Source of the DNA: Candidatus Bathyarchaeota archaeon
Lineage (GTDB): Archaea > Thermoproteota > Bathyarchaeia > TCS64
Reading direction: 5' to 3'
Length of the DNA: 64,000 nucleotides
NCBI GenBank assembly: GCA_026014875.1
Contig: JAOZHO010000037.1
Span: 124,001-188,000 of the forward strand
Shown in pieces: positions 2,474 to 7,136 of this stretch. A program made the translations under genes and the position numbers. The notes under the pieces are model-generated. The model was given only the letters and a program-made list of their open reading frames with translations, was not told the origin of the DNA and did not search any database. Positions within the stretch are counted from its first letter, which is position 1, and each line of letters starts with the position of its first letter.

Positions 2474-2591
2474 TTTCTCGCGGGCCACCATGCCCGACGG
2501 CTATTTTTCTTAACTCGGTGGCCGGTTTATCCTGCCCCGGGCATTGAGCTTATAGGATTCTTCCCGGGATCTATTCTCTGCGGTGTATTCG

Positions 2592-4001
2592 ATGGCGGGG
2601 GGCTCGTCCTGGGGGGAGATTCGGGGTAGAGTTCTCGATGTCGTCGTTCCCGGGCGGGCTGAGGTGGAGGCTGTGGGGGTGTTTGCCCGCAGGGTGGTGG
2701 AGGATCTGGGCGTCGGGCTCTCGGAGGCCGGGGTCCGGGGGGTTGCGGAGGTCCACGGGTCCGTTGCTCGGGGGACCTGGATTGCGGGGGATAGGGATTT
2801 CGATGTCTTCATCGTCCTCGAGGAGGGCTACGGGAGGGGGGACCTCCCGGCCGTGCTGGATGTTGTGAAGGGCATCTTGGGGGAGGGTTGGGTCGAGGCG
2901 TACTCCGAGCATCCCTATTTGATCGCCGAGGTCGATGGGTTCCGTGTCGAGTTCGTGCCCTGTTTCCGGGTCGACCCCCGGGAGGGGATTGTCTCTGCGA
3001 CAGATAGGACTCCGCACCACACGGGATTCGTCGTGGAACGCCTCCCCGTGTCTGCGAGGGACGAGGTCCGTCTCCTGAAGCGTTTCATGAAGGGCGTAGG
3101 GGTCTACGGGGCCGAGGTGAAAGTGGGGGGGTTCTCGGGCTATCTCTGCGAGCTGCTGGTGATCGCCCTGGGCTCCTTCGACGGCGTGCTTGAGGCGGCT
3201 TCCAGGTGGAGACGGGGCGAGGTGGTGGACCCCGTGGGGGGTTCGGATAATGATTCTCTCAGGAAGCGGTTCGGTGAGCCCCTCATCGTGCCCGATCCGG
3301 TTGACCCGGGGAGGAATGTGGCTTCCGCGGTCTCGGAGACCCGGTTCTGGGAGTTCTCGGCCGCCGCCAGGGCTTTCCTTGAGGGTCCGCGCTGGGAGTT
3401 CTTCTATCCCGTGGAGGGGGATGTGGATGGTGGGGGGTTGCTGGAGCGGGTTCGGGGTCACGGGTTTGACCTGGTCTTCCTCGTGGTGGGGGATGGAGAG
3501 GTGGAGGTCCCGGACGTGCTCTGGGGCCAGCTCTACAAGTCGGAGAGGGCCCTGGTTGCCGCTCTCGGGGAGGTGGGTTTCGGTGTGGTCCGCTCCGGGG
3601 TCTGGAGCGACGAGGAGTCGCGCCACGTCTTTGTCTTCGAGTTAGAGTCTGCGATTCTACCGGCTTTCGTGAGGAGGATGGGGCCCCCCGTGAGGATGGT
3701 GGAGGGGGGCCGCAGGTTCCTGGAGGCCCATGCGGGTTCGGAGGAGACTGTGTCGGGTCCCTGGGTGGAGGGGGATCGCTGGTGGGTCGTGATGAGGCGG
3801 GGGGAGCGGGGGGCTGGAGCTGCTTTGGGGTCGTTCCTCGTGGACGGGGGGCGGGGCGTCGGGGTCTCCCGGGGGATCGCCGAGAGGGTGTCCCGGGGTT
3901 TCAGTGTTCTCCTCGGAGGGGAGGTTGAGGAGGTCGTGACCCCCGATTTCGCCGCGTACTTGGATGGTTTCTTGAGAGGCAGGCCTGGCTGGCTTGAGTG
4001 A
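2592..4001 (+). CDS. cca: CCA tRNA nucleotidyltransferase, archaeal class I
   Basis: Adds or repairs the 3'-CCA of tRNAs using CTP and ATP. The N-terminal nucleotidyltransferase core shows the class I signature HGSVARGTW near residues 53-61 followed by the catalytic R-D-F-D-V-F (two carboxylates), then an FRVEFVPCF strand carrying the third acidic residue. The length of about 470 residues fits archaeal CCA enzymes of about 450. Start is ATG 2592; a GTG at 2583 is three codons upstream. The final TGA overlaps the TTG start of the next gene. The tRNA-Val gene in this window does not encode CCA, so the enzyme is needed. Confidence 0.95.
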   Translation: MAGGSSWGEIRGRVLDVVVPGRAEVEAVGVFARRVVEDLGVGLSEAGVRGVAEVHGSVARGTWIAGDRDFDVFIVLEEGYGRGDLPAVLDVVKGILGEGWVEAYSEHPYLIAEVDGFRVEFVPCFRVDPREGIVSATDRTPHHTGFVVERLPVSARDEVRLLKRFMKGVGVYGAEVKVGGFSGYLCELLVIALGSFDGVLEAASRWRRGEVVDPVGGSDNDSLRKRFGEPLIVPDPVDPGRNVASAVSETRFWEFSAAARAFLEGPRWEFFYPVEGDVDGGGLLERVRGHGFDLVFLVVGDGEVEVPDVLWGQLYKSERALVAALGEVGFGVVRSGVWSDEESRHVFVFELESAILPAFVRRMGPPVRMVEGGRRFLEAHAGSEETVSGPWVEGDRWWVVMRRGERGAGAALGSFLVDGGRGVGVSRGIAERVSRGFSVLLGGEVEEVVTPDFAAYLDGFLRGRPGWLE

Positions 4002-4755
4002 CGTTATCCCCCTCGAGGCGTTACTTGAGAGTCGGGCGGGTTTCCTGTTATCCTATCCCTCGGGCGATGTGGAGAGGGCGCGGGTTGTGCTGGGGGAGCT
4101 CGATGAGATGGGGATCTCCGCCCTCGTTCTGAGGGGGCGCCATGCGATCGCTGGCGTGCCTATCCTGGGTAAAGGGCACGTGGGGATCGTTATGACCGCT
4201 CTGCTCGGGGGGAAGGAGATGGCGGTGAAGCTGAGGCGTGCTGACGCTGATAGGGTGTCTATGGAGGCGGAGGGGGAGTTTCTGAGGGTGGCGAATGGGG
4301 TCTCGGTGGGACCTCGGTTTCTGGGGGTCTCACGGGAGGTCTTGGCGATGGAGCTCGTGGAGGGGGGCTACCTCGTGGACTGGGTGGGGGGATTGGGGTC
4401 CGGGGATGTTGGGCTGCTGCGGGGGGTTCTGCTGGATCTCATGAAGCAGGCCCGGAGGCTGGACGTTGAGGGTCTGGATCACGGGGAGCTCTCGAGCGCC
4501 CGGCGGCATGTCATCGTGTCGGGGGGCGTGGCGAGGATAGTGGATTTCGAGTCGGCGAGCGTCTCCCGGAGGTGTTCTAATGTGACGTCGATGGCGCAGT
4601 ACCTGTTCATCAATCGGGGGATGGCGGGAGGAGTGGAGGGGGTTATGCCGCTGCCCGACCGGGACGGCCTTGTGGCTGCGTTGTCGGCGTATCGGCGGCG
4701 GCCGGGGGAGGCGTCGTTCCGTAGGGTGCTGGCGGCGTCTGGGCTGGTGGAGTAA
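3994..4755 (+). CDS. predicted serine/threonine protein kinase, RIO/COG2112-like
   Basis: 253 residues with the outline of an archaeal minimal kinase: a glycine-rich LGKGHVGIV loop near residue 57, an A-V-K-L lysine near residue 77, a DHGELSS catalytic-loop equivalent near residue 165, and an I-V-D-F-E metal-binding aspartate near residue 184. This matches the small archaeal kinases grouped as COG2112, whose substrates are unknown. The TTG start overlaps the cca stop (TTGAGTGA), so the two genes are almost certainly translated together. Function is inferred from motifs only. Confidence 0.75.
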   Translation: MSDVIPLEALLESRAGFLLSYPSGDVERARVVLGELDEMGISALVLRGRHAIAGVPILGKGHVGIVMTALLGGKEMAVKLRRADADRVSMEAEGEFLRVANGVSVGPRFLGVSREVLAMELVEGGYLVDWVGGLGSGDVGLLRGVLLDLMKQARRLDVEGLDHGELSSARRHVIVSGGVARIVDFESASVSRRCSNVTSMAQYLFINRGMAGGVEGVMPLPDRDGLVAALSAYRRRPGEASFRRVLAASGLVE

Positions 4756-4792: not shown

Positions 4793-4866
4793 GGGACCGT
4801 GGTCCAGCTTGGCAGGATTCGCGCTTGGGGTGTGCGAGATCGTGGGTTCAAATCCCACCGGTCCCA
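4793..4866 (+). tRNA. tRNA-Pro (anticodon GGG)
   Basis: A complete cloverleaf: acceptor GGGACCG pairs with CGGTCCC, D stem GTCC/GGAT, anticodon stem CGCGC/GTGCG with loop TTGGGGT (anticodon GGG at positions 34-36), and T stem GTGGG/CCCAC around TTCAAAT. The discriminator is A4866 and CCA follows at 4867-4869. The last 34 bp through 4870 are repeated at 6838-6871, so the 3' half of this gene is an integration target and is now supplied by the integrated element. Confidence 0.95.
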
Positions 4867-4870
4867 CCAT
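4837..4870 (+). repeat. attL: 34-bp direct repeat (tRNA-Pro 3' end)
   Basis: Begins AGATCGTGGG and ends GGTCCCACCAT. It covers the T arm, acceptor 3' strand and CCA of the functional tRNA. Identity with 6838-6871 stops abruptly on both sides. Confidence 0.88.
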
Positions 4871-5048
4871 ATCAGAACCTAGGAAGTTTGAGAGTGAGAT
4901 TTTCCATACTTTAAGGGAATTGAAGAAAGCGGGATATGCTGAGAGCACAATTCAGACAACCTCTCAGAGATTGAAGCTTTTTGCAAAGCACTGTAACATG
5001 GATGACCCGGAGTCTGTGAGAAGCTATATCGCCTCAAAGATTGTATGA
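4839..5048 (+). pseudogene. integrase fragment int(C side), N-terminal SAM-like domain only
   Basis: Reading from the att core, the frame gives I-V-G-S-N-P-T-G-P-T (tRNA-derived) and then about 60 residues, including ELKKAGYAESTIQTTSQRLK, that look like the N-terminal core-binding (SAM-like) domain of a tyrosine recombinase. It stops at a TGA at 5046-5048, before any of the catalytic domain (R...H-x-x-R...Y), so the gene is truncated. In the circular form the frame would start at the ATG now at 6792. The assignment rests on this helical pattern and on the location at attL. Confidence 0.7.
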
Positions 5049-5374
5049 TGGCTTACAAGTCTGGGCTTGTGGATTGCATCCACTCCACCCCCTGAGTTGT
5101 ACTTATCTAGTGCCTCCTTTAGTTCATCCGAGTTATCCCGATGCTGGATGCCCTTCCGCTTTACCTTGGATTCCCTGATGATTTCAAGCGTCCCGCCGAA
5201 TGCTTTCACTAGGTCTCTGAACCATGCCTTCCGTGCCGAACCATTGTAATCTTCGTTGATAATTCCCTTCACCTTATTGTCATATAATCGTTTGATCAAA
5301 TAAACGGGGTTTTTCTTTAAATCACAAGATTTAAATAATTTTTCACAGTCATAGATCATATACGCCACCTTCAC
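5024..5374 (-). CDS. hypothetical protein in the tRNA-Pro element
   Basis: 116 residues, not recognised. The sequence is Lys-rich and mixed alpha/beta in appearance, with a central RKAWFRDLVKAFGG helix. Its AT-rich codon use is unlike the surrounding chromosome and matches the rest of the element. Its 3' end overlaps the truncated integrase by 25 bp tail to tail, which could mean that a rearrangement placed it there and removed the rest of int. It could itself be a fragment. Confidence 0.5.
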   Translation of the reverse strand: MKVAYMIYDCEKLFKSCDLKKNPVYLIKRLYDNKVKGIINEDYNGSARKAWFRDLVKAFGGTLEIIRESKVKRKGIQHRDNSDELKEALDKYNSGGGVDAIHKPRLVSHHTIFEAI

Positions 5375-5690
5375 ACCAATGCTTTGTGCATTGTGTGTGA
5401 GTTTTTATTATGCGACACATCAACTTATATTATTGTATTCCTCACTAATAAATGTTTCTATTTTATACTTTTCCTTAATGAAGTTAATATTGGTTGTATC
5501 TGTATTATTTATTATGAAGTGGAGATCATTAAATCTAATCAAAATATATGGCTTTTCACAGAATATTCTGCTAACAATATTTACGGAATTGACTACCTTC
5601 AGGTGTAGTGAGTTGAAGCTGTGGCACATTCCCTTCATGATGTGAAAAGGGGGCATTCAATGTCCGAACTAATGAGTGGATTCATCGTTA
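5375..5690. other. very AT-rich intergenic stretch of the element
   Basis: No gene, RNA or ordered repeat is convincing here. Short open frames occur on both strands, but the base composition makes such frames expected and none shows a ribosome-binding site or recognisable motif. Confidence 0.5.
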
Positions 5691-6356
5691 TCACGTAATA
5701 TCATCTTTTGTGATCTCAATGAAAACTTCCTCACTAAATCTTCCATAATTACCCTTTGAGTCAGTCCACTCATATCCCAGACCAAAACTGAAATCGACTG
5801 GCAACACATCAATGTACACATATGTATTGGCCCAAATAGACCAAGACTCACCAGATGAAATTTCCTCTTCCTCAATGATTCCAGCCTGTCGAATTTCAAG
5901 AACCACGTTTTCAGCAGTCTGCCTCCCCTTATTTTTGAATCTAAGAGTTATCATTTCAAGGTCTGGGTCATATGTCACATCTGAACATTCTAGGAGGGCT
6001 TGATCAGGCTTCGGTGTAAGTGATCCACCTAAGAAAAAGTAATAGATGATTAATCCAAAAACAATCAGCTGCAGACCCGATTTTATTTGATTCGTTGAAG
6101 TTTGAACCTGTTTTTTTTGGTTCAGTTTTTCTTGTTCTTGCTTCAGTTTTATTTCATTAATCCTTTTTCGGTTATTATCTGGACTAGATTCTGTCTTTGT
6201 CGGTTCTCTTTGTTCTTCAGTTAAATCAAATCTCTCTTTTGGGCTAACTCCGCAATTTGGACAAGGTCGATCATCAAAGAAAGAAGTGTAGGTATGCCCG
6301 CACATTGGACATCTGATTTCCTTTTCTTTTCTCCATCCCTGTAAATCTGAATCCAT
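5691..6356 (-). CDS. zinc-ribbon, single-pass membrane protein of the element
   Basis: 221 residues. An N-terminal zinc ribbon is visible: IRCPMCG near residue 14 and PCPNCG near residue 31. It is followed by a Lys/Glu/Gln-rich linker (about 60-115) that may be coiled coil, one transmembrane helix (LQLIVFGLIIYYFFLGG, about 117-133) and a beta-rich extracellular domain containing LRFKNKGRQTAENVVLEIR, typical of CARDB/FxLD-like Ig folds. This layout is common among archaeal membrane proteins of unknown role. Codon use is AT-rich like the rest of the element, so it was probably acquired with it. Confidence 0.7.
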   Translation of the reverse strand: MDSDLQGWRKEKEIRCPMCGHTYTSFFDDRPCPNCGVSPKERFDLTEEQREPTKTESSPDNNRKRINEIKLKQEQEKLNQKKQVQTSTNQIKSGLQLIVFGLIIYYFFLGGSLTPKPDQALLECSDVTYDPDLEMITLRFKNKGRQTAENVVLEIRQAGIIEEEEISSGESWSIWANTYVYIDVLPVDFSFGLGYEWTDSKGNYGRFSEEVFIEITKDDIT

Positions 6357-6791
6357 AAACTGAAGTTTTTACTGTTACAATATAAAAAATCAGCTATCTG
6401 TTTTTAGTTAAAAACGAATCTCAGTTAGCAGGTTTTATGACAATAAAGTCATTGACTAAATCTTTGTACCCCATTGACCCCCTAGGGGGTACATTGATTT
6501 GAAAAAATAGCGTAGATATATTCACTTCGATAAACGCTAAGGAATCCATTCACTCCATCAGGTGACCATAGACTATTCATCTCGGATTATCCACGCATTT
6601 CTTTCATCATTACAAACTCAAGAAAACGAGAAAATGAGTTTGATAGAGAATCAGTCTCAAAGGAAATAACTCGCTGCATTTTTTCTTATATATAGAAAAC
6701 AGGTTTTTTTGAATAAGGGGGCTAATTATGCCTCTATTTGTTATAAGGATCGTTTATAAGGGATATTGGCAACTATACTGAATGGATTGAA
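6357..6791. other. noncoding 435-bp region of the element
   Basis: AT-rich and without a supported gene. It contains a perfect GC-rich palindrome (listed separately) and a TATA-like GTTTATAAGG near 6748-6760 that could serve the integrase start at 6792. It probably holds the promoters and possibly the replication or maintenance signals of the former element. Confidence 0.45.
6477..6490. repeat. perfect 14-bp palindrome ACCCCCTAGGGGGT
   Basis: The palindrome sits in the AT-rich intergenic region of the element, where such a GC block stands out. A half-site-like GTACCCC precedes it at about 6467. It could be a repressor operator or a replication-protein site; no partner protein is visible. Confidence 0.55.
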
Positions 6792-6840
6792 ATGAAATCT
6801 TACGGAGCTGTTAGCGAAGCTGGAGAGCTGAGCCAGAAGA
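6792..6840 (+). pseudogene. integrase start fragment int(N side)
   Basis: An ATG at 6792 opens 16 codons (M-K-S-Y-G-A-V-S-E-A-G-E-L-S-Q-K) that run straight into the right-hand att core in the same frame used by the integrase fragment at attL. On the circular molecule these codons would therefore be the N-terminus of the integrase. In the chromosome the frame runs out of the element into host sequence after the core. Confidence 0.6.
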
Positions 6841-6871
6841 TCGTGGGTTCAAATCCCACCGGTCCCACCAT
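6838..6871 (+). repeat. attR: 34-bp direct repeat (tRNA-Pro 3' end copy)
   Basis: Identical to 4837-4870. It is preceded by sequence that is not tRNA-like (GAGCTGAGCCAGA), so it is only the displaced 3' end of the tRNA gene and not a second tRNA. Confidence 0.88.
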
Positions 6872-7044: not shown

Positions 7045-7136
7045 GAGACGGAACGCATAGCCCCCGATTCATCATTAACAGGCGCGTGATCCGGACAACC
7101 CGGAGAATAGCGAGTGAAGGATGTGGAAGGCTTCAG

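Follow-up and report, generated by a model that had tools for sequence, protein, structure and literature searches.

The window, a stretch of 64,000 nucleotides from a member of Bathyarchaeia (contig C50, 124001-188000, of a 2.5-Mb draft genome in 51 contigs), contains an intact tRNA-Pro gene followed by a 2-kb segment that ends in a second copy of the tRNA 3' end. The features of the locus are listed below.

2583-4001: gene for a CCA-adding enzyme, further upstream of the tRNA-Pro
3994..4755, + strand: host gene upstream of the tRNA-Pro, encoding a protein of 253 aa that looks kinase-like on inspection but has no Pfam family; in 26 of 31 genomes searched
4793..4869, + strand: tRNA-Pro(GGG), the integration target, still intact (ARAGORN; the order kinase-like gene, tRNA-Pro is syntenic in relatives)
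4837..4870, + strand: left attachment core, 34 bp, the tRNA 3' end plus one base (exact direct repeat)
4839..5048, + strand: int(C)-side remnant, 69 codons that run from the tRNA 3' end on into the N-terminal (core-binding) domain of an integrase, then a stop; lacks the catalytic part
5024..5374, - strand: 116-aa ORF with no function assigned, its 3' end antisense to the integrase remnant
5039..5095, + strand: possible, weakly indicated, frameshifted continuation of the integrase (KDCMMAYKSGLVD; local alignment, collinear position of relative L012)
5420..5656, - strand: ORF of 78 aa without matches, unlikely to be a gene
5691..6356, - strand: 221-aa ORF with N-terminal Cys pairs (zinc-ribbon-like), a hydrophobic stretch and an extracytoplasmic-looking tail; possible cargo gene
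6753..6759, + strand: TATA-like box TTTATAA read from the sequence, 33 nt ahead of the ATG at 6792; candidate promoter of the original integrase
6792..6839, + strand: int(N) remnant, an ATG and 15 codons into the right core in the integrase frame (same layout in relatives)
6838..6871, + strand: right attachment core, 34 bp, same sequence as the left (exact direct repeat)

The two 34-bp copies (4837-4870 and 6838-6871) are 100% identical at a spacing of 2001, far above chance expectation in a 5-kb stretch, and they duplicate only the 3' half of the tRNA-Pro. GC content falls from ~0.65 before the repeats to 0.32-0.39 between them and returns to ~0.6 past 7000 (neighbourhood ~62%). The repeat and the drop in GC are thus as given in a preliminary description of this DNA, which had identical tRNA-Pro 3'-end copies flanking an AT-rich 2 kb. 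Among the ORFs inside the segment, that of 221 aa has weak relatives in five genomes of the class, and relatives of the 116-aa ORF were sought in the class and none found. Pfam and relative searches with the cargo ORFs gave no functional match.

Both repeats carry parts of an integrase reading frame. The frame of the left core encodes IVGSNPTGPT from tRNA sequence and continues as ISEPRKFESEIFHTLRELKKAGYAESTIQTTSQRLKLFAKHCNMDDPESVRSYIASKIV to a stop (end at 5048), with no ATG ahead of the domain. The same phase of the right core is open upstream and has one ATG, at 6792, encoding MKSYGAVSEAGELSQK before the core and then IVGSNPTGPTIDII. The frames therefore read as first described, with 16 codons that lead into the right core in the phase of the left-hand integrase. 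In the window taken alone, this right-end open frame is weak as evidence (one of three phases would do). Joined, the right and left ends give 85 aa, for which a search of 101 genomes returned recombinase frames in 43; within the class, 31 of 257 genomes have a match at 1e-7 (best in G137, E 2.7e-18, 48% over 69 aa). The matched full-length proteins are tyrosine recombinases of 309-343 aa. The left core had been said to open into an integrase N-terminal fragment, an assertion that stood or fell with integrase similarity, and these matches provide it. A Pfam search with the fragment gave no family above cut-off (PF13495, E 0.17, below it), and single-protein scans of genome-contig and viral-contig collections gave no confirmed relative. 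No homology to the catalytic half was found within 4871-6871, in agreement with its reported absence. The best alignment score of KDCMMAYKSGLVD to L012 was equalled by 26 of 500 shuffles, so that an integrase continuing past a frameshift at ~5040 is suggestive only.

We conclude, at a probability of about 0.92, that 4837-6871 is the decayed remnant of an integrated element whose tyrosine-recombinase gene contained the element's own attP, close to the start codon. The repeats, frames and homology are joined in this reading by a single core at the same tRNA elsewhere and by the same architecture in intact relatives. In the former circle, the gene would have begun with the ATG at 6792, entered the 34-bp core (IVGSNPTGPT, matching the tRNA-Pro 3' end) after 16 codons and continued into the core-binding and catalytic domains. 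Recombination between attP and the tRNA-Pro 3' end would have restored the tRNA at the left, moved the 5' part of the gene (promoter, start codon and ~16 leading codons) to the right end and left the rest of the gene behind. A later deletion is likely to have taken the catalytic half and probably most of the cargo. As a consequence of that loss, the element is predicted to be incapable of excising itself.

A non-autonomous element of ~2 kb that is still mobilized in trans by a related integrase is the alternative that survives best, and we regard it as unlikely. Both of its att sites are intact and identical across 34 bp, and related integrases have been documented to excise split elements in trans, both SSV2 and, through the pTN3 integrase, TKV4 (PMC8371274). 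Identity of the cores, however, mainly says that insertion is not very old, because the tRNA copy is under selection. A search for an intact integrase of the family elsewhere in the same genome found none. Besides the fragment in the window, the genome contains another decayed element of this type (L088; contig C28:90000-99242, reverse strand 1454-2895), in which a tRNA-like core, GSNPIPGT, is repeated 1396 bp apart and the integrase frame is shortened, with two in-frame stops relative to a full-length relative. Autonomous or resident-assisted excision is therefore unlikely, but excision by an incoming relative is possible because both cores are intact. The preliminary description left a choice between a fossil and dependence on another integrase; the former holds, and the latter gains no support from this genome, where the sole other family member found is broken.

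The decayed, self-split integrase has full-length relatives that are common in the host's class (best 48% identical). Their integrases read in frame out of the 3' ends of tRNA-Thr, -Leu, -Ala, -Val, -Met and -Pro, an outcome in favor of the preliminary description, which had proposed a search for full-length relatives. The phase of the tRNA 3' end that is used varies between elements. The closest matches to the window fragment (L094, L177 and L178) start from tRNA-like 3' ends in the phase used in the window. According to ARAGORN, the tRNA of L177 is a tRNA-Pro with an intron, and the integrase reads out of it in frame (...VKVVGSNPAGPTTSRTGPARAKIFGTLWELKKRGYC...). An interpretation of L138/L177 and L094 as unsplit genes was dropped because L177 lies in this intron-containing tRNA-Pro. 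Among intact relatives whose two ends can be seen, most measure ~3.4-6 kb.

In-phase right ends in these relatives bear on a second alternative, a classical element of the pNOB8 type with an integrase at attL that has its own start, a right-end frame that is open by chance and an integrase that simply decayed. The tRNA-side frame indeed has nearly the whole conserved protein in many relatives (305 aa past the core in L010 and L075), and internal ATGs are present, so translation without the right-end codons is possible in principle. Yet 16 of the 17 relatives with an integrase frame of at least 190 aa and an exact downstream repeat have an ATG ahead of the right core copy in the phase of the left, integrase frame (the exception is L118). 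The integrase phase is the sole phase with an ATG in 13 of these 16. By our own arithmetic, the chance of such agreement in phase is ~1.5e-5 when near-copies are collapsed to nine single-phase and three two-phase cases. Short N-termini also recur, MYEPTIREIMSIEKITKAKG in L075 and L092 and a variant, IMSIDKITKAKG, in L202. Further, L175, an IMG/VR contig, has an uninterrupted integrase gene with an in-frame segment of tRNA T-arm, GSRVQIPPG, and the left frame of the window lacks an ATG ahead of the domain. A pNOB8-type history is accordingly quite improbable, and the right ends together with L175 uphold the proposal of an integrase that is continuous through attP in the circle. The T-arm segment of L175 lies between an N-terminal zinc ribbon and the recombinase; integration would therefore cut the ribbon off. 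The ribbon (CPxCGS...QRWLCRxCGYRFS) marks a sub-branch that includes L175, L112, L128, L171 and others. Four loci labeled 'bathy_other' in our tree, a label meant for unsplit integrases (L095, L104, L210 and L211), have repeats with an in-frame ATG too, and we thus make no claim that the split trait is absent in that group.

Orthologous tRNA-Pro sites, located through the conserved upstream neighbor gene (3994..4755), differ in occupancy among genomes. Four genomes (G001, G003, G005 and G016) have one core at this tRNA and not both repeats, in line with the empty site that the preliminary description proposed to look for. In G001, of the same genus, there is no integrase coding beyond the tRNA-encoded stretch, and synteny resumes from window position 7136; the sequence from 6872, after the right core, reads CGATATTATAGG, and its first ~265 bp are not alignable to G001, so that the single core there does not confirm the precise join expected at CGATATTATAGG. 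In G003, this frame may have left a very short trace, most of it encoded by the tRNA (E 1.6e-4). G006, of another genus in the same family, has a decayed sibling at the same tRNA-Pro (CEVVGSNPTDPTIEITDPVESKIFKTLWS). In G030, of the same order, the orthologous tRNA-Pro opens into a full-length split integrase, and 3.76 kb downstream there is another core with an in-frame ATG. A tandem tRNA duplication or assembly artefact without integration has in its favor that the genome is a draft and that contig C31 of the closest relative, G002, ends inside the upstream gene, but it is scarcely credible given that the repeat takes in just the 3' half of the tRNA, that host synteny is present on both sides and that the left copy leads into a recombinase. 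In a separate case (L072; G011:C14), a family integrase lies on the opposite strand, 31-267 bp after the tRNA-Pro.

The integrases of ten relatives match PF00589 (E 1e-9 to 8e-22) and not PF16795, a membership test that rests on these ten, as the window fragment itself lacks the catalytic half. The SSV1 Int control matches PF16795 (E 1.5e-61) and also PF07935. Relatives of 309-349 aa have the complete PF00589 catalytic domain, and the catalytic motifs (R, RH, GH and Y) are conserved in intact relatives, with R138, R231, H232, H254 and Y263 invariant in the alignment (L010 numbering). For the relatives tested, the best NCBIfam profile is recomb_XerA_Arch, at 51-99 bits versus a cut-off of 220 for the XerA equivalog (NF040815), and thus far below the score for that assignment. 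The best match among solved structures is 4a8e (XerC-like), followed by IntI4 (2a3v) and XerA (5hxy). In the final tree, from which L001 was left out, SSV1, pXZ1, pT26-2, pGE2 and bathyarchaeal PF16795 sequences fall together in a single branch (100/100). The family of the window fragment has a separate branch (99/94) and is not grouped with SSV1/pT26-2. A union of the two branches has support of 78/27 and is neither supported nor rejected. Judged by profiles and tree, the family is PF00589/XerA-like and not a member of the SSV/pTN3/pT26-2 integrase family. Its members differ from archaeal XerA in being mobile and tRNA-targeting, in a conserved C-terminus (LIExGFEYVTE..KLFRKRK) and in forming their own branch.

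The organization of the elements is nevertheless that of SSV1-type systems (SSV1, SSV2 and pXZ1, and the pTN3 and pT26-2 families), in which the att core is a tRNA 3' end inside the integrase gene and, after integration, int(N) and int(C) are at opposite ends and the tRNA is intact. Likewise, attP of the present family lies in frame inside integrase coding sequence, and integration sends int(N) and int(C) to opposite borders and restores the tRNA. These likenesses support a mode of action like SSV-type (self-splitting, 'suicidal') integration, with a predicted recombinase activity; the logic of such integrases has been described (PMC3293823, PMC8371274). Of the 'SSV-type' label in the preliminary description, the mechanism is retained on the basis of the split frames and the relatives, whereas the protein family is PF00589 instead of the PF16795 and PF07935 of SSV1 Int. 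The position of the split differs as well. In SSV1, a 44-bp site is annotated within int, starting ~63 codons into a gene of 335 codons, whereas int(N) is 16 codons in the window and ~8-27 in most relatives; being this short, it implies a gene that is beheaded and not halved as in SSV1. Like pNOB8-type elements, those of the family target a tRNA 3' end and have an integrase adjoining the reconstituted tRNA, but a pNOB8-type gene is whole after integration (PMC3293823, PMC8371274) and here the start codon and promoter are parted from the gene.

A review assigns suicidal integrases to PF16795 and proposes a single origin for them (PMC8371274). In the open-licence literature we found neither split PF00589 integrases nor SSV-type integration in Bathyarchaeia described, and a paper on Bathyarchaeia viruses mentions integrases in general terms only. 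We lean, by a modest margin of confidence, toward a second self-splitting lineage, PF00589/XerA-like and spread across Bathyarchaeia, that gained an in-gene tRNA att site independently of SSV/PF16795 and that beheads its gene near the start in any of the three frames of the tRNA 3' end. Independent origin of self-splitting in the family is, taken by itself, possible but unproven. Self-splitting integrases have been treated as an archaeal speciality, and a distinct PF00589 family extends the phenomenon beyond hyperthermophile models. The persistence of such integrases is an open puzzle (PMC8371274), and a split family in PF00589 makes the questions of origin and persistence testable. The locus in the window is only a fossil, and the interest lies in the family from which it derives; one orthologous tRNA-Pro offers natural pairs of occupied, decayed and single-core sites.

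Several loci of the family vary in content and arrangement. The interiors of three intact relatives inspected (L075, L099 and L203) encode a conserved Cys-rich protein with a PHxHxLG motif, which has one weak match to Rep_1 (E 0.0046), otherwise almost no Pfam signal, and is possibly a candidate (rolling-circle) replication initiator. L076 (G070:C35) is a tandem array of three tRNA-Thr cores, at 311, 3877 and 7234, with an intact integrase at the first and shortened integrases at the other two, an arrangement that suggests that elements entered the same site more than once. Integrase frames of L034, L020, L133 and L191 resemble antisense tRNA translations, and in L034 a tRNA-Val on the opposite strand spans the start of the frame; such elements may use their att site in antisense orientation. 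Lastly, archaeal integrase loci of this kind are present in metagenome-assembled genomes named Clostridiales (L093, JAFGAC010000163.1) and Desulfobacterales (L149, JABXJW010000342.1), the contigs of which are probably mis-binned.
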